Shown in pieces: positions 2,175 through 63,028 of a stretch of DNA of 64,000 bases. The number at the start of each line of letters is the position of its first letter. The first letter of the stretch is position 1. The position numbers and the translations under genes are program-made. The stretch comes from Gemmatimonadaceae bacterium (lineage in GTDB: Bacteria > Gemmatimonadota > Gemmatimonadetes > Gemmatimonadales > Gemmatimonadaceae), in assembly GCA_016742275.1 (NCBI GenBank), contig JACVCD010000004.1:186001-250000 (forward strand), read 5' to 3'. The notes under the pieces are model-generated. The model was not told the DNA's origin. It did not search any database and saw only the letters and a list, made by a program, of their open reading frames with translations.

Positions 2175-2194
2175 TTCTCACTGAGTGAAACAGA

Positions 2195-2246
2195 GCGGCC
2201 CGGTGGCCCTGGCATCCCGCCAGTGGTCACCGGGCCGCACTGTTTT
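2195..2246 (+). terminator. Rho-independent terminator after the S9 peptidase
   Basis: An 11-bp perfect stem (2195-2205 paired with 2228-2238, GC-rich) encloses a second inner pairing. It is followed by a five-T run at 2242-2246. It lies about 20 bp after the peptidase stop. Confidence 0.8.
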
Positions 2247-2255
2247 TCGCTCAGG

Positions 2256-3044
2256 CTATTCGTCTACAATGGGGAGCTCCGTGTAACGGCGATACGAAAC
2301 CGCCGTACCGATGCGATGCAGGACATGCAGACCACGGAGCGGTGCGCCAGCTGTGTGTTGCGACAATGCCTCTTTGAGTCCGTGACAGAGATGACTGTTG
2401 CAGATCGCCGAACGCATATCACGCGGCAGTGTGCACCCCTTGGTGCCCTGGTATACGCATCCCGGCACCTGACTGCGCGCTGGCAGTCGCGAGCGGTACG
2501 CTTCCGCGATATCCTCGTCGCTCATGGACGGGTGCCGCTCGCGATACTCCTGCATCGTCCGTTCGTTGAGATACGCGTGTTCTCCACCGCCGCGGCAGCA
2601 ATGCCCACGACAAGCAGCACACGCCGTTCCGAACAACGCGCCCACATCGGCTGGGAGTTCGGCTGGCTGCGCCCGATGCCGTGCGATCTGTTCCGGTGAC
2701 TGCTTTCGCGATTCCTGCAATTGCTCGCGCACATGAGCGAGCAGCTTCGCGTGTCGCCGCTTCGAGGCAACACGTGATGCGCTCTTGTTGCGAGGCACAA
2801 CCGCGATACCGCGCTGCGTATGATCGGCAGACGGGGGTAACGACACCTCTGCCTGAGCTCCGAGCGCGCGCGCTTCCTCCCATACACGATTCAGCTCGTC
2901 GCGCGCGTCCTGCAGGCGACGCAGAGATCCTGCGTGCAAACAGGCCGGCGCTTCACAGGTACCCGCACGCTGGCGCAACGCATCAAGCGGCGCCTGACAC
3001 AGGGCACAACGGGGAGCGGTCGACAGCGGCACGGAAGACGACAT
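2256..3044 (-). CDS. YkgJ-like cysteine-cluster protein (zinc/iron chelating)
   Basis: This 262-residue protein is rich in paired cysteines. The N-terminus has CALC at residues 13-16 and then C30 and C35, resembling a small zinc ribbon. The middle has the CxxCxxxCC pattern (CAACRGHCC), followed downstream by two more cysteine groups (PGC...KGC and ICNSHLC). This spacing is typical of the YkgJ / UPF0153 family of putative Zn or Fe-S binding proteins of unknown reaction. Helical charged sequence joins the two clusters. There is no signal peptide, so it is likely cytoplasmic. It is transcribed convergently to the S9 gene and divergently from the DUF2721 gene. Function beyond metal binding cannot be assigned. 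Confidence 0.75.
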   Translation of the reverse strand: MSSSVPLSTAPRCALCQAPLDALRQRAGTCEAPACLHAGSLRRLQDARDELNRVWEEARALGAQAEVSLPPSADHTQRGIAVVPRNKSASRVASKRRHAKLLAHVREQLQESRKQSPEQIARHRAQPAELPADVGALFGTACAACRGHCCRGGGEHAYLNERTMQEYRERHPSMSDEDIAEAYRSRLPARSQVPGCVYQGTKGCTLPRDMRSAICNSHLCHGLKEALSQHTAGAPLRGLHVLHRIGTAVSYRRYTELPIVDE

Positions 3045-3091
3045 AGCCGAATACTACCGCAGGTTTGCCCAGATGACGGTACATTGTTGCC

Positions 3092-3532
3092 ATGCAAACT
3101 GACGTCCAGATCGAATCGATTGCTCATGTCATCGAGCTCGCCATTGCCCCGGTCTTCATGCTCACCGGCATCGCGGCCTTGCTGGGTGTGCTCACCAACC
3201 GATTGGCGCGCATCATCGATCGGGCCCGCTTGCTGGAGGGTGGTCTTCCCGACCTCACGGGAGAGCACAAGAGTGTGGCCAGCGGTGATCTGATTTGGCT
3301 GTCGCGGCGCGCGCGTCACATCAATCGGGCAATCAGCCTTTGCACGATGGCCGCGCTACTCGTATGCCTGGTCATTGCCGTGCTGTTCGTGAGCGCATTG
3401 ATGTCATTCAATGCTGCGCAATTCATCGCTGCGCTATTCATCTGCACGATGGTTTGCCTCATTGCGGGACTCGTGAGTTTTCTGCGCGAGATCTCGCATG
3501 CCACCCGGTCGCTGCGTATTGGCCCGCACTGA
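3092..3532 (+). CDS. DUF2721 family membrane protein
   Basis: A 146-residue inner-membrane protein. It has a hydrophobic segment near residues 15-38, a charged amphipathic stretch with NRLARIIDRAR, and two further hydrophobic helices around residues 82-105 and 110-130. The arrangement and the N/R/I/D-rich motif after the first helix match the DUF2721 family, whose function is unknown. It is divergent from the YkgJ-like gene with 47 bp between them. It ends at a large bidirectional terminator shared with the cold-shock gene. Confidence 0.8.
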   Translation: MQTDVQIESIAHVIELAIAPVFMLTGIAALLGVLTNRLARIIDRARLLEGGLPDLTGEHKSVASGDLIWLSRRARHINRAISLCTMAALLVCLVIAVLFVSALMSFNAAQFIAALFICTMVCLIAGLVSFLREISHATRSLRIGPH

Positions 3533-3562
3533 CATTCGGCGAAGCAGCATCTCAACTCGCCG

Positions 3563-3608
3563 ATACACAACGGGCCACCAGTCAGATGACTGGTGGCCCG
3601 TTGTGTAT
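3563..3608. terminator. Bidirectional terminator, perfect 22-bp inverted repeat
   Basis: The arms 3563-3584 and 3587-3608 are exact reverse complements separated by only GA. It sits between the convergent DUF2721 and cold-shock genes. Each arm ends in an A/T-rich ATACACAA / TTGTGTAT stretch, so it can terminate transcription from both sides. Confidence 0.8.
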
Positions 3609-3626
3609 TTCACTCAGACGACGCGA

Positions 3627-3839
3627 TTAACCGCGGAGCTTCGTGACCTGCTCAGCGGCCGGACCCTTCTGACCCTGCACGATGTCGAACTCGACGCGCT
3701 CGCCCTCGGCCAGGGTGCGGAAACCGCCGCCCTGAATGGCCGAGTGGTGGACGAAGCAATCCTTCGAGCCGTCGTCGGGCGTGATGAATCCAAAGCCCTT
3801 GGCATCGTTGAACCACTTCACCTTGCCGGTCGTACGCAT
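3627..3839 (-). CDS. cspA: Cold-shock domain protein (CspA family)
   Basis: A single-domain 70-residue nucleic-acid chaperone. RNP1 is visible as KGFGFI and RNP2 as DCFVHHS, with the conserved GKVKWFN start. I place the start at the ATG at 3839, because AGGAG lies seven bases upstream (3847-3851) and the product then has the family's usual length of 65-70 residues. An upstream in-frame extension would add about 48 unrelated residues inside the leader. A perfect TTGACA promoter about 230 bp upstream implies a long untranslated leader, as in other cold-shock genes where the leader acts as an RNA thermosensor. This points to post-transcriptional cold control (inference). Confidence 0.95.
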
Positions 3840-4068
3840 GGCACTGCTCCTGTTGCTGTGTGTTCGGAGTCCGGCCCTGCCGTACGCACCGAGCACTCGT
3901 GTTGGTTCGCGGACCATACCCCCGCGCGGGTCGCGGTCGCCAATCGACAACCGCGTTGCTTTCAAAATCTCTCTGGACTTCACAACAAAGGGACCCGCTT
4001 CGCAGGTCCCGTGAGTCGCCCGCTATCGCGCTTCCCGCGCCGTGGCGCGTCCATATTGATCTGAATGC
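3840..4068 (-). other. Long 5' leader of the cold-shock gene
   Basis: About 229 nt lie between the predicted transcription start (near 4068) and the csp start codon. No convincing coding frame occupies it. Long leaders are known for cspA-type mRNAs and fold differently in the cold; here this is inferred from position and length only. The rest of the gap up to 4336 holds the promoter and no clear gene. Confidence 0.45.
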
Positions 4069-4074
4069 TGCTAG

Positions 4075-4103
4075 ACGCTAAAGCGCCTCCGCACAAGTGT
4101 CAA
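4075..4103 (-). promoter_or_regulatory. Sigma-70-type promoter of the cold-shock gene
   Basis: On the minus strand a perfect TTGACA (complement of 4098-4103) is followed after exactly 17 bp by TAGCGT (complement of 4075-4080), a weak -10. The predicted start lies near 4068. Confidence 0.55.
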
Positions 4104-4336
4104 CACTGATTTTTTGCTGGCCGGTCACGAGCGCGTCCCACGTCCGCGATCCACCCGTTTCCCCACGTACGGTCGAAGGAAAGCGTCGCGCTCCACACCA
4201 CGGGTCCGGCACCACTCCCCCTCATCGTCGGCCCATTCACATCACGGATACCGACCCCGGTACCGCTTTACATCGCGGGTGGCGACGCACAACGTGGAGG
4301 AGGTCCGTCGCCCATCCCTCTCCCCAAGGAGCCCCG

Positions 4337-4513
4337 ATGAAGGACGCTCAGCTCAAGGCCCTCCTCAAGAAGACGCAGCAGAAGGCCACGCAGGTCAAGA
4401 AGCCCACGCGCCAACCGTACGACCCGACACTCGAAGCGACGCGCAGCAAGCAGGAAGCGGACGACTCCGACGCCAAGGAAATTTTCAAGGAAATGAAGCG
4501 ACGGGAATTCTGA
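4337..4513 (+). CDS. Small charged hypothetical protein
   Basis: A 58-residue soluble protein rich in Lys, Gln, Glu and Asp with no cysteine and no hydrophobic segment. An AAGGAG ribosome site (4326-4331) sits five bases before the ATG, which makes this a convincing gene despite its size. The N-terminal third (KALLKKTQQKATQVKK) is strongly basic and the C-terminal third is acidic to mixed, predicted helical. It lies 51 bp before the first kinase gene on the same strand and may be co-transcribed with it. I do not recognise a family. Confidence 0.65.
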   Translation: MKDAQLKALLKKTQQKATQVKKPTRQPYDPTLEATRSKQEADDSDAKEIFKEMKRREF

Positions 4514-4564
4514 GCCACCGCTCCGTTTCGAAACCCCTCCCACCCGTCACTGCGTAGGGGAGCC

Positions 4565-6385
4565 GTGTATTCGACCCCGACTCCCCGTACGGACCCAGCA
4601 TTCCTCGCGCTGCAATCAGCGCTGGCTGGACGATTCTCTCTTGAGAGTGAACTCGGACGCGGAGGCATGGGAATTGTCTTTCTTGCGCGCGACGTCATTC
4701 TCGAACGACCGGTTGCCATCAAGCTGCTGGCACCAGCATTCGGCGCGCGCGAGGATATGCGTCGGCGCTTCCTGCGTGAGGCGCGCGTAGCGGCGCAATG
4801 CTTTCATCCGCACATCGTACCGATTCACGAAGTCGCCGAGTCGGGCGAATTGGCGTGGTTTGTCATGGGGTATGTGCAGGGTGAAACACTTGCCGACCGT
4901 CTGCAACGTATCGGGCCGCTTCCTCCTGACGCAGTACGCCGCATCGGACGCGAAATAGGGTGGGCGCTTAGCTACGCCCACGAACGCGGCGTCGTACATC
5001 GCGATGTGAAGCCAGAAAACATTCTGCTTGAGCAATCCACCGGCCGCGCACTCATTGCCGATTTTGGTATCGCCCTGCCAGATCGCGCCACCCACGCTTC
5101 CGGTGAGGTTATGGGTACGGCGCGATTCATGGCACCGGAACAAGCGCTTGGCGATGCGGTGGATGGACGGGCAGACCTGTATGCACTGGGCGTAACGCTC
5201 TATCTCGCATCCACCGGCCACTATCCGTTCGAAGGGGCATCGGCAATGGCCGTTGTCGCACGACAAACAACCGCGCGTGCACCCTCGGTGCGACAGCTGG
5301 CCCCCGGTCTACCGCATGCACTGGGGAATGCCATCGATCAATGTCTCGCACCAGTCCCCGACGACCGATACGACAATGCGGCGGCGTTTGTGGCCGCGTT
5401 GGAGCGTACGCCCGAGGGTGGTGAATTGCCCGCCGAGGCTCGTGACATTCGCCAGGGGATGTTGTCCACCGTGAACCTCGTGGACTGGGGAATCGCGATG
5501 GCGCTCGCCGGAATCTTTCTCGTCATGGGTGAAACACCGCGTTCTTTCGGACGCAGCCTCATGGCAAACATTGTGCAAACGGTGTTGTCCTTCACGGCAC
5601 TGGTGACGGCGCTGCGTGGTGGGGAAACCGTTTGGTCAGTCCATCGGGCGCTGCGCACGGGTGTTGATCCGGACATCGTCGTCGACGCGCTTGCCCCGGG
5701 ACCATCAATTCCGCATCGGGCATCCGGCCCACTCAAGGCAATAGCCATGCTATTTGCCGGCTTTCTGCTGGCATTGGGACAGGCGAAGGCAGACGAGTTG
5801 GGATTGCCTTCTGCGCTCCACCTGCTGGCCAACATCCTGACGTGGATTGTGCCTCCTGTGCTGATACACCGGGCCATCACCGGACTCCGAAGTGGATCGG
5901 GTGTCAGCGCCTGGTTGTACAGCTTCATTCGCAAACCGCTCGCCCAGCAATTTGTGCGCTTGCTTGGAGGCAGAAAGGCGGGTGCGGCCGCGCGTCCGGT
6001 ACCTGCCAGTGCACCAACCGAGGTGATGCTCGAGCACGCAGCCGACGCCATTTTTGCGCGACTCGCTCCAGCAACCCGCGCGCAACTCAGTGCGGTGCCG
6101 GGCGCTGCCGCAGCGTTGGCACGCGAGGCCGAAGCGCTGCGTGCACAAGCGCACATCGCGCAGGCGCGCGGTGAACGGCCCGAGATTGAAGCGCGACTCG
6201 GCACCACCATTGCCGCGCTCGAGAGCATTCGGGTTGATCTTCTGCGTGTTGAGGCCGAAGCGGCTGTGCCCGGCAATCTCACCGAACAACTCGAAGTCGT
6301 GCAAGAACTGCATCGGCGTATTGACGCCATGCAGGAAGTAGAACGCACGCTGTCCAGGCAATTCAGGGAACCAACACCGGCCTGA
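4565..6385 (+). CDS. Ser/Thr protein kinase with membrane helices and C-terminal coiled coil
   Basis: A Hanks-type kinase of 606 residues, GTG start preceded by GGGGAG. The N-terminal kinase domain (about residues 24-280) is complete: glycine loop LGRGGMG at 30-36, VAIK lysine 53, HRDVKPEN near 145, DFG near 165 and MAPEQ. Two hydrophobic clusters follow (about 300-345 and 390-445). They suggest membrane anchoring with the kinase in the cytoplasm. The last 130 residues are a charged, predicted coiled-coil tail containing ALESIRVDLLRV. The same tail pattern ends the two kinases at 47-51 kb. There are no PASTA, TPR or propeller sensor repeats. Substrates are unknown. Confidence 0.93.
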   Translation: MYSTPTPRTDPAFLALQSALAGRFSLESELGRGGMGIVFLARDVILERPVAIKLLAPAFGAREDMRRRFLREARVAAQCFHPHIVPIHEVAESGELAWFVMGYVQGETLADRLQRIGPLPPDAVRRIGREIGWALSYAHERGVVHRDVKPENILLEQSTGRALIADFGIALPDRATHASGEVMGTARFMAPEQALGDAVDGRADLYALGVTLYLASTGHYPFEGASAMAVVARQTTARAPSVRQLAPGLPHALGNAIDQCLAPVPDDRYDNAAAFVAALERTPEGGELPAEARDIRQGMLSTVNLVDWGIAMALAGIFLVMGETPRSFGRSLMANIVQTVLSFTALVTALRGGETVWSVHRALRTGVDPDIVVDALAPGPSIPHRASGPLKAIAMLFAGFLLALGQAKADELGLPSALHLLANILTWIVPPVLIHRAITGLRSGSGVSAWLYSFIRKPLAQQFVRLLGGRKAGAAARPVPASAPTEVMLEHAADAIFARLAPATRAQLSAVPGAAAALAREAEALRAQAHIAQARGERPEIEARLGTTIAALESIRVDLLRVEAEAAVPGNLTEQLEVVQELHRRIDAMQEVERTLSRQFREPTPA

Positions 6386-6443
6386 AGGCGCTGTATCTTG
6401 AGACCAGTGCGTGGTTCCTTCATCTCCTCCCCGCCCTGATGCC

Positions 6444-6971
6444 ATGATGCCCTTCACGTTCGATCTCATTCCGGCGCGCGCGCGGCTCGCCACCCTCGCT
6501 GTATGCGCCGTATTCATAACCGCGTGTACATCCGGTGATCGTGCCCCTGCCGATACCACCGCGACCGCCACGATGTCCAGTGATACGGGTGCGTGGCAGG
6601 ATGGTGATGAACAGATCGCCTGGTCCAGCGACATTGTGGACGGCAACATCACGGAGATCACCGAACAAGTCACGTTCGGGACTGATGGGCGCGCTGAACG
6701 TGTGTTGCGTTTCACGCCGAGCGGCAGTTTGACAGAGTTCCGCGAAACGCGAACGCAAACCGTCCAGAATTCCGCTCAGTCTCCCTCCACCATGCGCGTG
6801 GAGTTGCAAGTGACATTTGCGGGTGACACGGTAGTCTCTCAATCCAAGACCGTCGACGGTGCACCATCGACGGTGCAACCGTACGATCTCGACAACATTC
6901 GTCGACACGCGGCTGCCACGTTGCAGCAGCTCCGTCTTCCCGATTCCTCTGCCGCCGCACGTCGTGACTGA
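6444..6971 (+). CDS. Small putative lipoprotein
   Basis: A secreted protein of about 175 residues. A hydrophobic N-terminal segment ends in FITAC, a good lipobox, so it is probably anchored in the outer or inner membrane. The mature part is Thr/Asp/Ser-rich with beta-strand-like alternation (ITEQVTFG..AERVLRFT..LTEFRE), reminiscent of repeated beta hairpins. I use the ATG at 6444; an in-frame GTG at 6411 would give eleven more residues, and neither has a clear ribosome site. Its last eight bases (GTGACTGA) overlap the start of the following ATPase gene, so the two are probably translationally coupled. No family was recognised. Confidence 0.65.
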   Translation: MMPFTFDLIPARARLATLAVCAVFITACTSGDRAPADTTATATMSSDTGAWQDGDEQIAWSSDIVDGNITEITEQVTFGTDGRAERVLRFTPSGSLTEFRETRTQTVQNSAQSPSTMRVELQVTFAGDTVVSQSKTVDGAPSTVQPYDLDNIRRHAAATLQQLRLPDSSAAARRD

Positions 6972-9396
6972 TTTCGAAACACTTGGCGCCTTCTATCTCG
7001 GCAAGCGCTACGACATTCCTTCGCGCACACGGCAGAACGACTACGTCCTCTACGACGCGAAGGACCTAACCACTCATGCCGTGATCATCGGCATGACCGG
7101 CAGTGGCAAGACTGGCCTTGGTGTTGGCCTTATTGAGGAGGCCTTGATCGACAAGGTGCCCGTCATTGCTGTCGATCCCAAAGGGGACCTAGGCAATCTG
7201 GCACTGCGCTTTCCTCGCCTGGCAACGCAGGATTTCGCTCCATGGGTAGATCCTCAACAAGCTACGAATGCTGGTCTTACGCCGGAGCAATTCGCGGAAC
7301 AGCAAGCGGCGCTATGGGAAAAGGGGCTGGCTGGGTGGGAGCAGGACGGCGCGCGCATTCAGCGCTATTCCGATGCTGCCGACATCACGATCTACACACC
7401 CGGCAGCACCGCAGGACGGCCACTGTCGCTACTCAAGGCCTTCGACGCGCCGCCTCCGGTTGTTCGCGATGATGCCGAGGCACTGCAGGAACGTGTGAGT
7501 GCTACGGCAACCTCGTTGCTCGCGCTGCTTGGCATCGAAGCCGATCCGATATCGAGCCGTGAGCACATACTGCTGGCCAATCTCTTCCATCATGCATGGA
7601 GCGAAGTCCGGAGCCTCGACCTCGCCGGCGTGATTGGCGGTATTCAGAATCCGCCGTTCACCACCGTGGGCGTGATGCCGCTTGATACGGTGTTTCCGCC
7701 AAAGGATCGCATGGCATTGGCCATGCAGCTCAACAATCTATTGGCAGCACCTGGTTTTCAGACGTGGATGCAGGGAGAGGCGCTCAATACCGCCAATCTG
7801 TTGTATGACCCACAAGGGAAGCCACGCGGTTCCGTCATCTCCATTGCGCATCTGAACGATGCGGAGCGCATGTTTTTCATGACGCTGCTGCTGTCGGACA
7901 TTCTCGCGTGGGTACGCACGCAGCCCGGCACCGGATCACTGCGCGCCATTCTCTATATCGACGAACTGTTTGGCTACATGCCGCCGGTGGCCAATCCGCC
8001 GAGCAAGGTATTGTTGCTTACGCTACTGAAACAGGCGCGCGCGTACGGACTTGGTGTGGTACTCGCGACGCAAAATCCGGTGGACCTCGACTACCGTGGA
8101 CTATCCAATACTGGCACCTGGTTCATCGGTCGCCTGCAGACCGAGCGAGACAAGATGCGCGTGATGGAGGGTCTGGAAGGTGCTTCCGGAGGTCAGGCGT
8201 TTGACAAGGCGGCTATGGAACAGACCATCGCAGGACTTGGCAAGCGTGTGTTTCTGCTGCATAGCGTACACGAACCAACTCCCATCACGTTCGAGACACG
8301 CTGGACACTGTCCTATCTCGCGGGACCGATGACGCGGGAACAGATACGGCAGGTGAGTGCGCTTTCGGCTCCATCCGCTGCCGCACCAATCGCCGCGGCT
8401 CCATCCGTATCCGCCCGCACATCAACCACAGGTGCATCTGGCGAGTCGCAGTCGGCTCCGCCAGTACTGCCGCACGACATCGCGCAGTACTACTTGCCAG
8501 CAGACGATGGCGATGATGCCATTGAGTACTCGCCTGCCATTGTTGGATTGGCCGATGCAAGTTTTGCGAACGCAAAGCTCGGCATCACCGAACAGCGCCG
8601 CATCACGTTGCTCGCCAAGGTAGACGACGGTCCCATTGCGCTCGAGTGGGACGGTGCGGAGCGACTCGACATCGAACCAGCATCGTTGAGCAAATCACCG
8701 GCATCGCCGGCGCGATTTGCGGCTGTGCCACCGGCAGCGGCGAACGCCAAGAGCTATCCGGTGTGGAGCAAGACGCTGCAGAAGTGGGTGGTGGCCAACG
8801 AACAGATCACGCTGTTCAAGAGCGCGGCCTACAAAATCACGTCGAGTGCGGGAGAAGCCGAGCGGGATTTCCGCATCCGACTACAGGTTCTGGCGCATGA
8901 GGAGCGTGACCGCAAGATCGATGCGCTCCGAACCAAGTATGCCACGAAACTCTCGACGCTCGCCGACAAGGTGCGTCGTGCCGAGCAGTCCGTGCAGCGT
9001 GAGCAGCAGCAGGCCTCACAGGCCAAGATGGATACTGCCATTTCTGTCGGCGGAGCAATTCTTGGTGCGATCTTCGGGCGAGGCAAAGTAGGTGCCGGTA
9101 CGATTGGCAAAGTCGCGACAGCCACTCGTGGAGCAGGACGCGCGGCGCAACAGGCCGGTGACGTCACTCGTGCGCAGGAAAGTCTCGAAGCGGTTCGGCA
9201 GCAATACACCGAACTCGAGTCACGTCTGCAGGAAGAGGTCGATGCGCTCGGCGCATCTTACGATGCCCAGCAGGAGACGCTGGAATCGGTGGTGGTGAAA
9301 GCCAAGGCCAGTGACGTGCAGGTGCAGATCGTGGCGCTGCTGTGGCTTCCCCATCGGCGTGACGCACAGGGAATGACCATCGCCGCCTGGCGATGA
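6964..9396 (+). CDS. HerA/FtsK-like P-loop ATPase (DUF87-type ATP-binding protein)
   Basis: An 810-residue cytoplasmic ATPase, starting at a GTG that overlaps the lipoprotein stop. Walker A is GMTGSGKT at residues 43-50. The next conserved motif, AVDPKGD, is typical of HerA/VirB4-like enzymes. Walker B is ILYIDELFGYMPP near residue 333, and an ATQNPVDLDYRGLSN sensor region follows. A Ser/Ala/Pro-rich linker (about 465-500) leads to a C-terminal region with a long predicted coiled coil (about 640-700) and a short Gly/Ala-rich hydrophobic stretch (ISVGGAILGAIFGRGK) near 700-715. HerA-like enzymes usually act as hexameric DNA translocases. No nurA or other nuclease gene is adjacent, so a role in end resection or defence is not supported here. 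Confidence 0.8.
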   Translation: MTDFETLGAFYLGKRYDIPSRTRQNDYVLYDAKDLTTHAVIIGMTGSGKTGLGVGLIEEALIDKVPVIAVDPKGDLGNLALRFPRLATQDFAPWVDPQQATNAGLTPEQFAEQQAALWEKGLAGWEQDGARIQRYSDAADITIYTPGSTAGRPLSLLKAFDAPPPVVRDDAEALQERVSATATSLLALLGIEADPISSREHILLANLFHHAWSEVRSLDLAGVIGGIQNPPFTTVGVMPLDTVFPPKDRMALAMQLNNLLAAPGFQTWMQGEALNTANLLYDPQGKPRGSVISIAHLNDAERMFFMTLLLSDILAWVRTQPGTGSLRAILYIDELFGYMPPVANPPSKVLLLTLLKQARAYGLGVVLATQNPVDLDYRGLSNTGTWFIGRLQTERDKMRVMEGLEGASGGQAFDKAAMEQTIAGLGKRVFLLHSVHEPTPITFETRWTLSYLAGPMTREQIRQVSALSAPSAAAPIAAAPSVSARTSTTGASGESQSAPPVLPHDIAQYYLPADDGDDAIEYSPAIVGLADASFANAKLGITEQRRITLLAKVDDGPIALEWDGAERLDIEPASLSKSPASPARFAAVPPAAANAKSYPVWSKTLQKWVVANEQITLFKSAAYKITSSAGEAERDFRIRLQVLAHEERDRKIDALRTKYATKLSTLADKVRRAEQSVQREQQQASQAKMDTAISVGGAILGAIFGRGKVGAGTIGKVATATRGAGRAAQQAGDVTRAQESLEAVRQQYTELESRLQEEVDALGASYDAQQETLESVVVKAKASDVQVQIVALLWLPHRRDAQGMTIAAWR

Positions 9397-55823: not shown

Positions 55824-56309
55824 TCATTGACGGATAGTGAAGTTGAGCGGAGGCGCCTCCCACACGGTTGTCGTGCCTCGCAAGACGCGGATGTTGAGTC
55901 GTGATGCACCAACTGCCTGACCAATGAGTGCCCCACCTGCTCGGTCGCCCTCCCAGCGCGCCCGCGTTGGGTCTTCGATCACGACTGGCAATGCGTGATC
56001 GGGATGTCCTGAGAGCGAGATCCATTCGTTGCGTGGTGGAATGTCGTGGTCATCCGGTGCGCGCCCCTGTTTCACGAAGTACACGCGGAGTTCGCGACGT
56101 CCACCTACGGACACAATGGGAAATCCGTGCCAGTGATCGTCATGCGAAAACATGACCTCACCGGAAACGGCATCTTCGACGACGATGCTGTTGATGGACA
56201 GCGCATCGGGCCCACCGGGTGGTGACGCAGGATCGCCCTCGCCACCACAGGCCACGAAAGAAGCGACCAGTACCGCCGCCAGTGCTGCAGACTTGAACGG
56301 GAATGACAT
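55824..56309 (-). CDS. Small lipoprotein with HDDHWH motif, putative zinc-binding
   Basis: A 161-residue lipoprotein with lipobox FVAC at Cys21. The mature part contains SHDDHWHGFPIVSVGG, a cluster of three histidines and two aspartates likely to bind a metal, probably Zn. DDHD and SGHPDHALP follow further on. A beta-sandwich-like body follows (RLNIRVLRGTTTVWEAPPLNFTIRQ). It is the last gene of the four-gene operon that begins at 60426. Together with an AztD-like protein and a TonB receptor, it could hand metal between membranes. The family is not named; the metal and role are inferred. Confidence 0.65.
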   Translation of the reverse strand: MSFPFKSAALAAVLVASFVACGGEGDPASPPGGPDALSINSIVVEDAVSGEVMFSHDDHWHGFPIVSVGGRRELRVYFVKQGRAPDDHDIPPRNEWISLSGHPDHALPVVIEDPTRARWEGDRAGGALIGQAVGASRLNIRVLRGTTTVWEAPPLNFTIRQ

Positions 56310-56336
56310 CGCTTTGAAGTAAGAGGCAGTTAGTCG

Positions 56337-56816
56337 TCAGCGTGCATCGGCACACGACGCAGCGGATGTGACGTGGATGTCGAGCCACGGCGTGACCATA
56401 TCGGCATGGGTTTCGTGCCACACGAGAAAGCGCACGCGTGTCCGGCCGACTGCGAGCCCCGTCAATCGCCCCCGTCCTTGCAGGGGCTCCCAGGACACCA
56501 GTGGCTCTTCGCTTTCCGCCCTGAGATCGAGGTCGCGGCGTGACGCCAGTTCTACTGGCTGGCCGCGAAAGTCGATCGCCCGTGCGGTAAGTGTTCGCGT
56601 CGTGCCATCACATAGCGTGAGGGGACCACCGCTCCACGTGCGATTGTCGTTTGTACGGGCCAATTCACCTGTGCTGATCGAATCGACGAGCACGATATCG
56701 GCGATTTCGGCGTGCGGCGTAACAACGGCGATGGGATGATCGCATGCAGCAGCAACAGCGAGCGCCGATGCGAGCCACATGCGGAACACCCGTGGTCTTG
56801 GTTTCGCGAAGCGCAT
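56337..56816 (-). CDS. Lipoprotein of the putative zinc operon
   Basis: A 159-residue lipoprotein, start ATG at 56816 overlapping the TonB receptor's stop by one base (TAATG). The lipobox is AVAAAC (Cys25). The body is beta-rich, with TWSGGPLTLCDGTTRTLTARAIDFRGQPVEL and a second half with RGRLTGLAVGRTRVRFLVWHETHADM, which looks like an immunoglobulin-like (BIG2-type) domain. Two cysteines (CDG and the CADAR tail) may form a disulfide. Scattered histidines could bind metal. Role unknown beyond the operon context. Confidence 0.65.
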   Translation of the reverse strand: MRFAKPRPRVFRMWLASALAVAAACDHPIAVVTPHAEIADIVLVDSISTGELARTNDNRTWSGGPLTLCDGTTRTLTARAIDFRGQPVELASRRDLDLRAESEEPLVSWEPLQGRGRLTGLAVGRTRVRFLVWHETHADMVTPWLDIHVTSAASCADAR

Positions 56817-59161
56817 TACCAGCTCCACCGGTAGTGTGCTCGCCAGTTACGCCCGGGTTGTGGCGCTACCTGCTTGGCACGCCACAGGTGATCACGCCAC
56901 TCAGTATCAAGTGCGTTCTCCACCGACAGCATGATCTCATGCAGTTGGGCGCCTCGCATCCACCGCCGACCGAGACTGGCTTGCAGGGTGACCCATCCTG
57001 GCGTAGCGCAGTACTCGGCCGGCAGCAATGTCGGCGACACCGTCCGCTGCGATGGCAATGCACATGACGCGGAGGACACGACCGGCGAACGTGGCACACG
57101 CGATTGACGTGCCGCGGCGTCTGCCGTAAGCGTCGCGCTCCATGCCGTGCGCTCCCAACGAGATTCCATTCGTGCCCGGATTGGCGGCATGGCCGGGAGC
57201 GCATCGCGTCCGGTGGTCGTATGTTGTGTTCCCTGAACCCACGACCACGTGCCTTCGAGACTCAGGCCACGCACATGTGGTGATGTCCAACGCGTGCGGG
57301 CTTCTGCGCCATGCAATCGTGCGTTCACCTGATCGGCGCGATACACGTTGTATCGACGTAGTCTCGGATCCGTAATAGGTTGCCCGGACAATGAATCGAC
57401 CAGCGGACGCTGCACAATGAAATCGCGCATATGCATGGCAAACAGGGCGAGTTCCGATGTCCATGGTCCGTGGGCAGTGCGCAGAAATACATCGAGTCCA
57501 ACCCCGCGTTCACCGCGCAGCTCGGGATTGCCGACTTCATACGCATAGGTGGCGAGATGTGGCCCCGCCGAAAAGAGTTCTTCGATGGCGGGCGGGCGAA
57601 ATGCGCGTGCTACGCTGGTGCCTATGGTGATACCTGGACGCAGCTCCATGGTCAGCCCTACAGCACCAGTGACTTCTGTGAAGGCGCGGGTGCGCACATC
57701 CGGCACCAGACGAGTGGGGGTGCTGTCGAGTGGTGTGATAACGGAACGGTCCAGTCGCGCGCCCCATTGCAACCGCACCGAACGCGCAGCACCGAACATC
57801 ATCCGTACGAGTGAATCGAGTTGCCAGTCTTCCATCATGAACACCGCGGCCGCTCGCATGACAGCCGGTCTCGTGCCAGTGAAGCTTCCGTCCGCACGAA
57901 AATCTCTCCACTGATGCCAGACACCCACATTACCGCGAATGGGTGTGCCGCGTATTGGTGCGCCTTGCCTCTCGTATTGCGCCAACACATCGGTATTGGC
58001 ATGGAGCTGACCAAAGCGCGTACCAACGAATCCTCCGCGCTCAAGTTCGGACTGGGCAAACCGCACATACTGCGATGACGCGGAAACCTTGGTGAATCGC
58101 GGCCGTGCGTCGATGATGGTCTCATTCTTTTCGTTCGGTGCGATCGCGCCACGTTCCCACGACAGATCGACCCGCCCGCTCCTGCGCGAGAGATCCACAT
58201 ACACACCGCCATCGTGCGCACCAGGCAGTACGACATCACCGAAGCTGCTGGGAACACCGTAAGTGCTGACCACATCGCGCGCCGCGCCTCCTACACGCCA
58301 TCGTCCACCGGTGGCTCCGATGTCCAGCAATGCAACGCCTGCACCGATGTCATGCCCTCGTGCGTCGGAATACGGGAGTGCACCACCTGGCGCGCGCGTA
58401 TTGCCAGCCGTTCGCCAGGCACCACCAGCGCGCCATGCCAGTGCCCCATATCCGCCATGCAATTGTCCCTGCGCCACACCGCCGTCATTGACCGATTCAC
58501 CTTGCCCGCTCATACGACCTGCAAGGATCCGCTCGCTGCGTGCCGTCGGCACATCATCCCGCACCACATTGATCACACCACCGAGGCTGTTGCTTCCGAA
58601 AAGCAAACCGGCAGGCCCGCGTATGATTTCCACACGACGGGCCGTCATGGGATCGATGGTGACTGCATGATCGGGCGCGGTGGTGGCGATATCGCCCGTC
58701 CGCTGTCCGTCCTCCAGAACAAGCACACGATCACCCGTAAGTCCGCGAATCACCGGCTGGGTAGCCATCGGCCCATTGCTTCGCGCTGTAACCCCAGGTT
58801 CACCGGCCAGCGTTGCCGCAAGTGACGGTGCCAGGCGTCGATCCAGCTGGCGTCCTTCGAGCACACTGACCGGACGCGCCATCGATACTCCGCCGCCCTG
58901 CACGGCCGTAATACGCACAGAGGACAGCACCTGCGCGCGGATGGAGTCCACTCGTGCACTGTCGGGTCGCACAGTTGCTGTGCGACCTGCTCCAGTGGCT
59001 TGGCCAGTTGACTGACCAGTGGATTGACCAGTGGATTGACCAGTGGATTGACCAGTGGATTGGGCGTGCAGCGCAGTCGCTGTGGCACCCATGCTCACGA
59101 GTGCCAACACGAGACAAAGCGCAACACAACGGAGGCGACCACGCACCGCTGACGTGCTCAA
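56816..59161 (-). CDS. TonB-dependent receptor, ZnuD-like
   Basis: A 781-residue outer-membrane transporter. A signal peptide (about 1-34) is followed by the (STGQ)n repeat and then the plug (SVRITAVQGGG, ATQPVIRGLTGDRVLVLEDGQRTGD, RRVEIIRGPAGLLFGSNSLGGVINVV). The barrel ends in WRAHYRWSW. There is no STN domain, unlike the receptor at 15440. TTG start overlapping the upstream stop (TTGA). Plug style and operon partners (AztD-like, two metal-binding-like lipoproteins) favour a ZnuD-type zinc receptor over a siderophore receptor, but substrate is inferred. Confidence 0.85.
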   Translation of the reverse strand: MSTSAVRGRLRCVALCLVLALVSMGATATALHAQSTGQSTGQSTGQSTGQSTGQATGAGRTATVRPDSARVDSIRAQVLSSVRITAVQGGGVSMARPVSVLEGRQLDRRLAPSLAATLAGEPGVTARSNGPMATQPVIRGLTGDRVLVLEDGQRTGDIATTAPDHAVTIDPMTARRVEIIRGPAGLLFGSNSLGGVINVVRDDVPTARSERILAGRMSGQGESVNDGGVAQGQLHGGYGALAWRAGGAWRTAGNTRAPGGALPYSDARGHDIGAGVALLDIGATGGRWRVGGAARDVVSTYGVPSSFGDVVLPGAHDGGVYVDLSRRSGRVDLSWERGAIAPNEKNETIIDARPRFTKVSASSQYVRFAQSELERGGFVGTRFGQLHANTDVLAQYERQGAPIRGTPIRGNVGVWHQWRDFRADGSFTGTRPAVMRAAAVFMMEDWQLDSLVRMMFGAARSVRLQWGARLDRSVITPLDSTPTRLVPDVRTRAFTEVTGAVGLTMELRPGITIGTSVARAFRPPAIEELFSAGPHLATYAYEVGNPELRGERGVGLDVFLRTAHGPWTSELALFAMHMRDFIVQRPLVDSLSGQPITDPRLRRYNVYRADQVNARLHGAEARTRWTSPHVRGLSLEGTWSWVQGTQHTTTGRDALPAMPPIRARMESRWERTAWSATLTADAAARQSRVPRSPVVSSASCALPSQRTVSPTLLPAEYCATPGWVTLQASLGRRWMRGAQLHEIMLSVENALDTEWRDHLWRAKQVAPQPGRNWRAHYRWSW
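59014..59061. repeat. Four perfect 12-bp tandem repeats inside the TonB receptor gene
   Basis: GACCAGTGGATT is repeated four times without mismatch, with two degenerate copies on the side at 58990-59013. The unit is 12 bp, so a change in copy number keeps the frame and adds or removes one STGQ block right after the signal peptide. Confidence 0.9.
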
Positions 59162-60426
59162 CGCTGCAGTGTGCGATTTTCGGCCACACCAAGCACCACG
59201 ATGCGCTCCGGCGTGCCGCCAACCTGTAGTGTGCGCGTCAACGAGGGCACACCGTTCGCACTCAGCGCGATTTCGTACACACGACCCTGAGTCGGGCTTG
59301 TCATGTACACGGCGCCTTCAACGAAGGCAAGAAATGGCGTGAGTACCGTGCCACTGGTCGGCATCGCTGGCACGACGCCACCCAATGTACCGGTCACCTG
59401 TCGTGTGCTCATGTCGACGATGTACAGCGCACCAGTGCGTCCAAGCACGACGGCAAATCGTCCGCTGTGATCGATGTTCGCCGTCCAGTCGAGATCACTG
59501 TTCGGCAGGATGATCGGCAGCATCGTGCGCGTCGATGCCTGCGTGACCCCCAGACTCCGTGTTTGTGTGCTCACCGGTTGTCCACGAAGGGACATGAGCA
59601 CGAGGAAATTGGATTGCCCATCGCGCGCCCAGACGGTGCCCACACCAAATCGTGTATCGGACGCGTGCACGAACTTGGTGAAGGTGGCTCCCGTACTTCC
59701 CGTGCTCACGAGCAGCGCACCATCGGCGCAGCCGTAGAGGGCTCCCGTACTATTTCCGGCCAATCCATGGAGCCCCGTGCAATCACGGGAACGTCCCACC
59801 TCCTGACCGGCCCGGTTGTAGACCACCACACCAAGTGGAGACGTCCCGGCCGCGGGATCGCGCAATGATGCGGAGACGAATGCCCCATCCGCCGACGCCA
59901 TGCCCGCGCCATGATGGGCAGATCCGGTATTCACCGTCATCGTCGGAGTGAGATTGCCACCAGCGACTCCCTGTTCACTCCACAGGCGCACATTGCCGCT
60001 GCCATCGAAATGGGCAGAGACCCAGTCACCGACATAGTTGCCATGGATGGGCACTGAGTCCGTGAAAAAGCCCAGTATGCGTGGCGCCGTGAGTACACCA
60101 CGATCGCCCTGTGCGTAGACACCGCCGTCAATGAATCCGACGCGATTGCGGGTCTGGAAATGAGCGAAGGCGACGCGTCCCTTCGCGGTATAGAGGTAAG
60201 TCACGCGGGATGGCAGCCCGCCAATGGAGTCCACTCGTTGGCCATTTGACGCCTGAAGAACCCGGACAAACGGGGCAGTATCAGATACGACCAGGCGACG
60301 GAATTCACTGCTGGGAACCGTATCCTCACCGTTCCCAGTGGGAGAATCGGAGTCGTCGCAGGCAGCGAGTGCGATCAGCGCGACTGCCAGCAACGGCAGC
60401 GGCCGAGGGCGGCGGGCAAAAGACAT
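59158..60426 (-). CDS. AztD-like lipoprotein, putative zinc metallochaperone
   Basis: A 422-residue lipoprotein with lipobox ALAAC at Cys23. The body is a beta-propeller-like protein whose order of motifs follows AztD, the periplasmic zinc chaperone: GRVAFAHF..., VGFIDGGVYAQGD, then WVSAHFDGSGNVRLW. After it come TGSAHHGAGMASADGAFVSAS, GVVVYNRAGQEV, DCTGLHGLAG and LYGCADGALLV. The His pair in SAHHG and the LHG histidine are candidate metal ligands. The AztD N-terminal His-rich loop is reduced here. It is the first gene of the operon and precedes the TonB receptor. Zinc is inferred from family likeness only. Confidence 0.7.
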   Translation of the reverse strand: MSFARRPRPLPLLAVALIALAACDDSDSPTGNGEDTVPSSEFRRLVVSDTAPFVRVLQASNGQRVDSIGGLPSRVTYLYTAKGRVAFAHFQTRNRVGFIDGGVYAQGDRGVLTAPRILGFFTDSVPIHGNYVGDWVSAHFDGSGNVRLWSEQGVAGGNLTPTMTVNTGSAHHGAGMASADGAFVSASLRDPAAGTSPLGVVVYNRAGQEVGRSRDCTGLHGLAGNSTGALYGCADGALLVSTGSTGATFTKFVHASDTRFGVGTVWARDGQSNFLVLMSLRGQPVSTQTRSLGVTQASTRTMLPIILPNSDLDWTANIDHSGRFAVVLGRTGALYIVDMSTRQVTGTLGGVVPAMPTSGTVLTPFLAFVEGAVYMTSPTQGRVYEIALSANGVPSLTRTLQVGGTPERIVVLGVAENRTLQR

Positions 60427-60453: not shown

Positions 60454-60473
60454 ATCGGTATTGAGTTACCGAT
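60454..60473. promoter_or_regulatory. Palindrome in the zinc-operon leader, possible metalloregulator site
   Basis: ATCGGTA-TTGAGT-TACCGAT: a perfect 7-bp inverted repeat with a six-base spacer. It lies between the predicted promoter and the start codon of the AztD-like gene. A repressor such as Zur or another Fur-family protein could bind here; the sequence does not match the classic E. coli Zur box. Confidence 0.5.
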
Positions 60474-60488
60474 CTCATTAACAGCCGA

Positions 60489-60517
60489 TAAGTAAAATCT
60501 CCGTATTGCGATGTCAA
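60489..60517 (-). promoter_or_regulatory. Promoter of the putative zinc operon
   Basis: On the minus strand a perfect TTGACA (complement of 60512-60517) is followed after 17 bp by TACTTA, with a shifted ACTTAT as alternative -10. Transcription would start near 60483, just before the palindrome. Confidence 0.45.
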
Positions 60518-60567
60518 TATCGTTAAGCGATCCACGTTGCCCCGCAGCAGAACGTGGCGCAGCCCGA

Positions 60568-61734
60568 TCAGGCTCGGGTCAGCTCTCGCAGGACGAGACG
60601 GGTCACACGGCGCGCGAGCTCGTCGGCGGAGCCGTCACCATGCTCGGCAGCGACGGCAATGGCGCGCTCTTCGAGTGCGCCCAGGCGGGCGCCGAGCTGA
60701 ATGCGATGCGTGGCACGGGCGAACCGATCGAGTTCGAGTTGCAACGCAGAGCCAGCGCGGCGTGCACGCGCATCGGCAATGGCCGGAGCACTCCGCTCCT
60801 CGAGTGCAGCCAGTGAAACGATCTGCAGCAGTGTGTCCTGTGCGCTTTGTACAAGCGCGTCGTCCGACACAGCGCCGGGGACTCCGAGGTCCACCCAAAG
60901 CTTTGCCGACGCACAAAGACTCTGCAGCGTCTCGACTTCGTCGCCACCAATCAGCGGCGACGTGACCTGGATAGCAAACACCACCATGCACGCCTGAGCA
61001 ATGGCAGCATGACGGGTCTCCCAGGGCACCACTTCGAGACCGTATTCCGTCGCCGCGGCCTGTGCACGCGCATCGGTGCGGTTGGTGATGCGTACGACCG
61101 TGCGCTCCAGCGGCTGGCGCTTTAGCGCTTCCAGTACGCCACGCGCCGCGTCGCCCGAACCCACGATCAGGAGTGATCGTTCGGCATCGGCATGCACACG
61201 GGCCTGTGCCTCTGCCTGCGCATTCACAAACGCCGCCAGTCGCGCGTGCACACGCTCTCCCAGCGCAGGATCGGCATCACCACCCATCGCGACACGAATA
61301 TGGCGCGCAGCATCGATGGCATGGCGGAATGTGCCATCGAGCGCGCCGCGCGATGTGCCGACATTGCGGGCGGTAGTCCACGCCTGACGGACCTGACCCA
61401 GAATCTCCGGTTCGCCATAGCGCGCGGATTTCATTCCGGCAGCCACGGCAAACAGATGACGCACCGCGAGATCCGCGTCAGCCCGCTCGACTCGCAATGC
61501 AGTCGAAGACTGGCTCAACACCTGATGCGAGAACCATGGCGCAAGCTCCGCCTCGCCCCACCAATACAGCTCTGTGCGATGGCAAGTGCTGACGAGCACC
61601 GCGTCAACCTGCTGCTCGCGCAAAGTCGTCAGCATGTCGCCGGTTCGCTCCGGTGACAACCGCACACCGCCCACCTGCTCTGCTGCACTCGACTCGTGCG
61701 AGCAACCCACCACGTGAAACGGCAGGAGGAACAC
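60568..61734 (-). CDS. hemA: Glutamyl-tRNA reductase
   Basis: The first enzyme of C5 tetrapyrrole synthesis, reducing Glu-tRNA to glutamate-1-semialdehyde with NADPH. 388 residues. The nucleophile Cys51 is in STCHRTELY, where nearly all family members have TCNRTE. AAGMKSARYGEPEILGQV and the NADPH-side LLIVGSGDAARGVLEAL follow. The C-terminal dimerisation helix region is present but short. The GTG at 61734 is one base after the hemH stop, so both are translated from one transcript; a longer frame to 61770 overlaps hemH. It is the downstream gene of the hemH-hemA pair. Confidence 0.92.
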   Translation of the reverse strand: MFLLPFHVVGCSHESSAAEQVGGVRLSPERTGDMLTTLREQQVDAVLVSTCHRTELYWWGEAELAPWFSHQVLSQSSTALRVERADADLAVRHLFAVAAGMKSARYGEPEILGQVRQAWTTARNVGTSRGALDGTFRHAIDAARHIRVAMGGDADPALGERVHARLAAFVNAQAEAQARVHADAERSLLIVGSGDAARGVLEALKRQPLERTVVRITNRTDARAQAAATEYGLEVVPWETRHAAIAQACMVVFAIQVTSPLIGGDEVETLQSLCASAKLWVDLGVPGAVSDDALVQSAQDTLLQIVSLAALEERSAPAIADARARRAGSALQLELDRFARATHRIQLGARLGALEERAIAVAAEHGDGSADELARRVTRLVLRELTRA

Positions 61735-61735
61735 G

Positions 61736-63028
61736 TCAGTTAACCGAAGCAGTAGTCGCCAATGCTGCAACAGATCCAGCTACAGCGGATCCAGCTGCAA
61801 CCGACTCAGACGCGCATTGCACCGCACGTCCTCCAGCGAACTTCTCACGCGGCAAACCTGAATCAAGACGCGAGTGTATGCGTGATGGTACCCCACGGCA
61901 TGCGGTGTTCACACATCCGGGGCATTTGCTCCGGTACTGCGTGCTGAAAGGCTCGCCTGAGTTGAGATGTGCAGAAACAATATCTGCCAGCGCATCGAGA
62001 AACTCGGGACGCGCGTTGAGTGCTGGTGCCCGCCTGAATCCCGTCATGCCATGGGCATGCGCCAACTCAGCGTATTCGATATCGAGCTCAGACAGCGTCT
62101 CGATGTGATCACTGGTGAAAGCGATCGGCACCACGAGCACGTTTTTCTGACCACGTGCCGCGAGCTGTTCGATCACCGTCTCCGTGCTCGGACCCAGCCA
62201 ACGCACTGGCCCGACTTCCGACTGATACGTGACGAGGTACGGATTACGCATTCCGATGTTCTGCACCACACGGCTCACCGTAGCCGCAATCTCCGAGGGA
62301 TAAGAATCACCACGATCGATCACGGAGAGCGGCAGGGAATGCGCACTGAACATCACCAGCACATCGTCACGATCAGCTGCCGGATATTCCTCGAGTCCGT
62401 CCTCAATAGCGCTGGCCATCGCACTCACAAACCCCGGATGCTCACCCCAGCGATCGATGATGCTCCACTCAAAGGCATCTTCGAGTCCCGTGCGCTGTGC
62501 GGCCCGCCAGAGATCATTGAGACTCGAACCAGTGGTCGCGCAGGACCACTGTGGATACTGCGTGAACGCCACCGCGCGCGTGACCCCGTCGGCCTGCATG
62601 GCCCGCAGGGCATCGTCAGCAAAGGGATGCGTATACCGAAAGGCCACGTAGAAGCGATGCGGGGCCGTCTCCGGCGACATCTCATCAAGCCGACGGCACA
62701 TCGCCTCACCCTGCGCCGTTGTCCAACGCAGAATGGGTGAGCCACCACCAATGGCTTCGTACAGCTTGCGAACCTTCGGCGCACGACGCGTGGCGATGAA
62801 CTTTCCCAGCACATCCTGAAACGGCAGCTGGATGATCTCGCGGTCGGCAAACAGGCGCAGCAGAAACGGCTCTACATCGCCGAGCGTGGCCGGACCGCCA
62901 AGATTCATCATCACGATGCCGGTGCCGCCGTTGGCTTTGCCTCTCGTCTCTCCTCTGGTGCCACCGATCTGCGAAGACGGTGCCGGGGTGGGGGTCCGGC
63001 CAGGCGATGGCACATCGGTGGGAGTCAT
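61736..63028 (-). CDS. hemH: Ferrochelatase with vertebrate-type [2Fe-2S] ligands
   Basis: A 430-residue terminal heme enzyme that inserts Fe(II) into protoporphyrin IX. The core is standard: GIVMMNLGGP, MFSAHSLPLSVIDRGD (His230), AFTSDHIETLSELDIEY (Glu310). Four cysteines match the [2Fe-2S] ligands of human ferrochelatase: Cys163 in SCATTGSSL, and Cys369, Cys372, Cys377 in KCPGCVNTAC. The protein continues some 50 residues past that point, ending in an Ala/Val-rich stretch that could touch the membrane. The Pro/Thr/Gly-rich first 32 residues are not part of the fold. hemA follows one base after its stop. Confidence 0.95.
   Translation of the reverse strand: MTPTDVPSPGRTPTPAPSSQIGGTRGETRGKANGGTGIVMMNLGGPATLGDVEPFLLRLFADREIIQLPFQDVLGKFIATRRAPKVRKLYEAIGGGSPILRWTTAQGEAMCRRLDEMSPETAPHRFYVAFRYTHPFADDALRAMQADGVTRAVAFTQYPQWSCATTGSSLNDLWRAAQRTGLEDAFEWSIIDRWGEHPGFVSAMASAIEDGLEEYPAADRDDVLVMFSAHSLPLSVIDRGDSYPSEIAATVSRVVQNIGMRNPYLVTYQSEVGPVRWLGPSTETVIEQLAARGQKNVLVVPIAFTSDHIETLSELDIEYAELAHAHGMTGFRRAPALNARPEFLDALADIVSAHLNSGEPFSTQYRSKCPGCVNTACRGVPSRIHSRLDSGLPREKFAGGRAVQCASESVAAGSAVAGSVAALATTASVN

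Follow-up and report, generated by a model that had tools for sequence, protein, structure and literature searches.

A putative zinc-uptake operon linking a ZnuD-like receptor to an AztD-like lipoprotein propeller and two further lipoproteins in a Gemmatimonadaceae genome

The stretch of DNA analysed here (the window; 64,000 nucleotides, positions 186,001 to 250,000 of contig JACVCD010000004.1) belongs to a Gemmatimonadaceae genome (GCA_016742275.1) of 4.57 Mb in 33 contigs that is 99.6% complete. It carries four linked minus-strand genes, hereafter the cassette, encoding an AztD-like beta-propeller, a TonB-dependent receptor and two small lipoproteins, A and B. The propeller stop and the receptor start overlap as TTGA, the receptor stop and the start of lipoprotein A overlap as TAATG, and 27 bp separate lipoproteins A and B, confirming the junctions given in a preliminary description of this DNA. 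A sigma70-like promoter, whose boxes were read by eye from an alignment of upstream regions, and two operator-like sites precede the first gene. The promoter position is conserved among Gemmatimonas relatives, and the aligned promoters share the -35/-10 pair and both sites.

55824-56309, minus strand: lipoprotein B, 161 amino acids, containing FSHDDHWHG
56337-56816, minus strand: lipoprotein A, 159 amino acids, ATG start
56816-59161, minus strand: TonB-dependent receptor, ZnuD-like, 781 amino acids, TTG start
59158-60426, minus strand: AztD-like lipoprotein beta-propeller, 422 amino acids, lipobox LAAC
60457-60477, minus strand: operator B, TGAGATCGGTAACTCAATACC, downstream of the -10 box
60489-60517, minus strand: sigma70-like promoter, -35 TTGACA (60512-60517), 17-bp spacer, -10 TACTTA (60489-60494)
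60502-60522, minus strand: operator A, CGATATTGACATCGCAATACG, overlapping the -35 box, one mismatch to TGATAnTGnnnTnnCAnTA

The receptor comprises plug and barrel domains (PF07715 and PF00593), and ZnuD was its best match in a search of the PDB (E 2.4e-29), followed by PhuR (6e-15). Comparison of its profile with ZnuD (4rdr) gave an E value of 4.4e-57, and ZnuD was also the best NCBIfam model, although the score (NF038289, 123.8 bits) lies below the cut-off of 950. The high-affinity zinc ligands of ZnuD are Asp99, His100, Glu340 and His499 (PMC4557270). A profile alignment to 4rdr, in which the chain numbering is shifted throughout by 14, and an alignment of 11 sequences placed Asp164, His165, Glu372 and His535 of the receptor at these positions, and all four residues were invariant in the 11 cassette receptors (11/11). 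No His-rich run, such as the His/Asp-rich extracellular loop 3 that is a feature of ZnuD, is visible in the sequence of the window receptor.

The propeller had no match in Pfam, but its resemblance to AztD was upheld by both sequence and fold, as the preliminary description had proposed. Indeed, it matched NCBIfam NF038015 (E 2.6e-24; 85.6 bits, below the cut-off of 400) and the PDB entries 6cmk (E 6.7e-13) and 6ck1 (E 7e-7), with a sequence identity to AztD of 21%. An AlphaFold2 (AF2) model built from 16 sequences (predicted template-modelling score 0.85) matched the AztD chains 6cmk, 6n01 and 6ck1 with Z-scores of 42.0-42.4 over 356-361 residues at 2.3-2.4 A, against 24.8 for the next best propeller among the matches listed, and the nine best Foldseek matches were all AztD; AztD thus remained the best-fitting family. 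According to the published account (PMC6689063), zinc site 1 of Paracoccus denitrificans AztD (PdAztD) consists of His124, His167 and His218, with a disulfide between Cys214 and Cys231, and site 2 consists of His99, His102 and Asp104, with His408 in part; in the docking model published there, site 2 sits in the cleft of AztC. Counting along the phmmer alignment, the site-1 histidines are kept as His128, His172 and His220 and the disulfide cysteines as Cys216 and Cys233, and these five residues are conserved in 24/24 aligned propellers. In contrast, site 2 is lost in the window propeller, which has Gln, Arg and Val at those positions (motif GVYAQGDRGV), and in nearly all aligned Gemmatimonadota propellers, its histidines being kept only in L032/L074 and L075. 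The propeller therefore shares with AztD the fold, site 1 and the disulfide, but lacks site 2, a score above the NF038015 cut-off and linked aztABC/AztC genes, so that it counts as an AztD-like protein, probably able to bind zinc, and is not classed as AztD. A scan of IMG/VR with the propeller returned no relatives. In AztD-like proteins of Rhodococcus (L033, L034, L037), site 1 and the cysteines are kept and the site-2 hairpin is divergent (WTEGSEHY).

Lipoproteins A and B are paralogues (hhalign probability 96.6, E 5e-10) with no match in Pfam or NCBIfam, nor in the PDB by profile search. Invariant motifs are C-[DE]-H-P, H-x-E and W-H-x-x-H-x-D in lipoprotein A, and S-H-x-x-H-W-H-G and D-D-H-D-x-P in lipoprotein B, from which metal binding by both proteins may be inferred. 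Structure prediction gave lipoprotein B an immunoglobulin (Ig)-like/Big_2-like beta-sandwich, for which Foldseek returned weak Ig-like matches only and VIA-align found the S-layer protein SbsC and other Ig-like/Big_2 domains (Z up to 9.9). These matches reflect a common fold and indicate no function. The lipoboxes of the propeller and of both lipoproteins recur in their relatives.

The propeller was found in 10 of 99 genomes of the same family, and the named relatives of the locus belong to Gemmatimonas and other Gemmatimonadaceae. The order propeller, receptor, lipoprotein A, lipoprotein B on one strand was kept at all checked loci of this family (f1) with enough flanking sequence, and the complete cassette was likewise present in a second family, f5 (L074, L075). 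This recurrence in uncut f1 loci and in f5 argues that the linkage is not due to chance. In a survey of the phylum (395 genomes), the propeller was detected in 18 genomes and lipoprotein B in 19. One f5 locus (L104) carries a propeller with no recognised receptor alongside, and at another f5 locus, L077 (4221-11177), which has no recognised propeller, the receptor, A, B and a third A-like lipoprotein adjoin genes for a His-rich ZrgA, a DUF3299 protein, an ATP-binding cassette (ABC) ATPase and a MacB-type permease. At L105 (G350:C20) the propeller gene is split over two frames, probably through a frameshift or an assembly error.

The preliminary description had also stated that no ABC genes were present, which holds for the neighbourhood of the operon and for importers of the ZnuABC type. 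Indeed, ZnuA (PF01297), ABC-3 permeases (PF00950) and ZIP transporters (PF02535) were not found in the host genome at family cut-offs, and Nramp was present; the loss of site 2 fits a genome in which no ZnuA-family protein was detected. The statement does not extend to the whole genome, where genes of the Zrg type lie elsewhere. A ZrgA is encoded on contig C26 at 65.8 kb (PF10986, 96 bits against a cut-off of 27.4; NCBIfam NF047873, 59 bits, below the cut-off of 185), and a Zrg-like operon of DUF3299, ATPase and MacB-type permease genes lies at C29:251.2-254.0 kb (L148 4177-7021). The C29 permease, which contains an insert rich in Pro and Ala and the stretch EEHDHGDD, shares 53-57% identity, over two segments, with the permease beside the L077 cassette. 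ZrgA of Vibrio cholerae binds zinc and is required for import of the metal via ZrgABCDE (PMC9820375).

The zrgA gene on C26 forms part of a second zinc locus (L084, G000:C26:62000-76000, 694-7972), which encodes an MbnP-like protein, a COG0523 GTPase, DUF3299, ZrgA, a 617-amino-acid permease, a PAP2 protein, a Fur-family regulator and a SCO1-like protein. An operator matrix built solely from cassette promoters and applied to a 14-kb stretch of this other contig picked out two sites at promoters, scoring 20.2 between the COG0523 gene and DUF3299-zrgA and 19.7 before the permease gene, compared with background maxima of 8.6-14.0 in 55 kb of the window. The cassette promoter of L075, from the second family, also carries an operator site (score 19.7). 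The pattern TGATAnTGnnnTnnCAnTA was written from the two second-locus sites and window operator A, and the genome-wide search was made by this pattern only. Exact matches in four whole genomes numbered six, all at a cassette promoter or the zinc locus, with roughly 0.1 per genome expected from base composition. This test is not fully independent, since the two matches in this genome shaped the pattern and those in the relatives were already known; its independent part is that no further exact site occurs in any of the four genomes. The operator is thus common to the cassette and to other zinc genes, as expected of a Zur regulon. The C-terminal half of the permease matches ArsP_1 and its central part is a His-rich stretch (L084 4377-6230); the corresponding region of G022 (G022:C1 near 3333478) gives a ZIP-domain match, which suggests that the permease may combine a ZIP-like with an ArsP-like half.

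Taken together, the AztD-like protein, the zinc-type receptor, the two histidine-bearing lipoproteins and the lack of an adjoining ABC importer support a zinc-acquisition operon, as first proposed, and we consider it likely that the operon responds to zinc starvation and serves zinc uptake at the outer membrane. When zinc is scarce, a repressor of the Fur family, with the Zur-like protein of the second zinc locus as the likeliest candidate, would quit the two promoter operators and allow transcription. The ZnuD-like receptor would then bind zinc, the presumed metal, in its buried Asp-His-Glu-His site, with TonB energy driving inward passage. Site 1, in the pore of the propeller, would bind zinc, and the propeller and the two Ig-like lipoproteins would together retain zinc at the envelope. 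All three may collect zinc at the surface for the receptor or, more likely, buffer receptor-delivered zinc in the periplasm. The proposed partners for cytoplasmic uptake, to which zinc would be handed over, are the unlinked ZrgA and the Zrg-like ABC permease and ATPase, possibly with the second-locus permease, and not ZnuABC or AztABC. The earlier suggestion that zinc crosses the outer membrane through a chain of lipid-anchored chaperones found no support, the receptor with the whole zinc site of ZnuD being the expected route; such a chain is conceivable only to one side or the other of the receptor, collecting zinc at the surface or relaying it within the periplasm, and not as the membrane passage itself.

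Several results weigh against this interpretation. With site 2 lost, the published AztD-AztC model of transfer cannot apply. The matrix found no operator at the Zrg-like ABC operon on C29. The Fur-family gene, 0.8 kb beyond the permease start (C26:69022), was assigned as the regulator by its position alone, and its product fits generic PerR/Fur models, all below cut-off and none Zur-specific. The presence of ZrgA in 5/10 cassette carriers against 1/89 other genomes (Fisher p 2e-5) speaks in favour of the interpretation, as does its adjacency to the receptor and lipoproteins at L077, but the co-occurrence tests are not corrected for shared ancestry. The exclusion of ABC-3 permeases by the cassette is weak evidence, with a p value of 0.012 if two weak matches are discounted and of 0.31 otherwise, and two cassette-free genomes of the same genus (G048, G086) also lack ABC-3, ZIP and ZrgA.

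A more specific view can be put forward only tentatively: the operon would be a distinct system for acquiring zinc at the outer membrane, with an AztD-derived lipoprotein propeller that retains site 1 only and two histidine-bearing Ig-like lipoproteins acting as a relay or surface collector on a ZnuD-like receptor and feeding ZrgA, not a cluster A-I binding protein. The propeller and lipoproteins could instead store or protect zinc in the envelope without relaying it, leaving transport to the receptor alone. Such a buffer would agree with the loss of the site that docks onto AztC, but the four genes form a single tightly coupled set conserved together with the receptor, and we regard it as rather unlikely. 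Handling of copper, nickel, cobalt or another divalent metal, or a general metal supply, under a Fur-family regulator other than Zur, appears improbable. The 617-amino-acid permease comes nearest to SO_0444, a Cu/Zn efflux family (NF033936), the SCO1, MbnP and MerC-like genes lie nearby, and no model assigns the Fur-family protein, which together make another metal possible; the MerC-like assignment was made by eye for a small membrane protein with no NCBIfam match, at the start of whose gene (L117 5268-5721; G000:C26 near 59.7 kb) a third operator-like site scored 19.2. However, AztD-like, ZnuD-like, ZrgA and COG0523 proteins co-occur, and all point to zinc. Import of haem or another chelate for iron or tetrapyrrole supply is highly improbable and was rejected, for although the receptor also scores with the haem-receptor models TIGR01785 and TIGR01786 and with PhuR/ShuA, and hemA/hemH-like open reading frames lie just upstream (60568-63028), ZnuD was best in every receptor search, the zinc ligands are invariant with PhuR lacking a counterpart of His535, the operator is common to the operon and the zinc locus, and, of the Gemmatimonas upstream regions aligned, only those of the window and L013 contain a hemA-like 3' end ahead of the operon.

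Compared with known systems, the operon looks like a variant within ZnuD-type outer-membrane zinc uptake, in a combination apparently unrecorded before. With AztD of the AztABCD systems of Paracoccus denitrificans and Citrobacter koseri (6ck1, 6cmk), the propeller shares the fold, the three-histidine site in the pore, the disulfide and export, but it differs in its low identity and model score, in the loss of site 2 and in being a lipoprotein in a Gram-negative. Moreover, AztD neighbours aztABC, whereas the window propeller adjoins a TonB receptor; the available part of a survey of AztD neighbourhoods does not mention TonB receptors. The receptor resembles ZnuD of Neisseria meningitidis (4rdr) as a TonB receptor with the four-residue zinc site, and the operator overlapping the promoter recalls the Zur-regulated receptor genes znuK and znuL of Caulobacter (PMC4176598). 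It differs from ZnuD and ZnuK/ZnuL in being linked to two new lipoproteins and a protein resembling AztD, and its NCBIfam score is far below the ZnuD cut-off. ZrgA, DUF3299, MacB-type permease and ATPase, the components shared with ZrgABCDE of V. cholerae (PMC9820375), are all encoded in the window genome, but split over two loci apart from the outer-membrane cassette, and adjoin it only in L077. In Colwellia psychrerythraea ND2E (L038 6534-10266), a ZnuD-like receptor with the Asp-His-Glu-His site directly precedes an AztD-like gene, but there the gene order is reversed, the site-2-like motif is kept, the receptor has a His-rich insert and no lipoprotein A or B was recognised; a Crp-type regulator and ABC genes of another type follow downstream.

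How zinc travels from TonB receptors to inner-membrane importers is poorly known, and the presence of a ZnuD-like receptor, a propeller and two lipoproteins in one gene set makes this question directly testable. The comparison also gives AztD a second setting, outside ABC operons, offers a natural test of the roles of its two zinc sites, and yields a predicted zinc regulon for those Gemmatimonadota that lack importers of the ZnuABC type; no account of TonB-dependent zinc uptake in Gemmatimonas was found in the open-licence literature. As a minor feature, a 12-bp tandem repeat at 58992-59062, absent from the aligned relatives, encodes the STGQ repeats of the window receptor's N-terminal linker.
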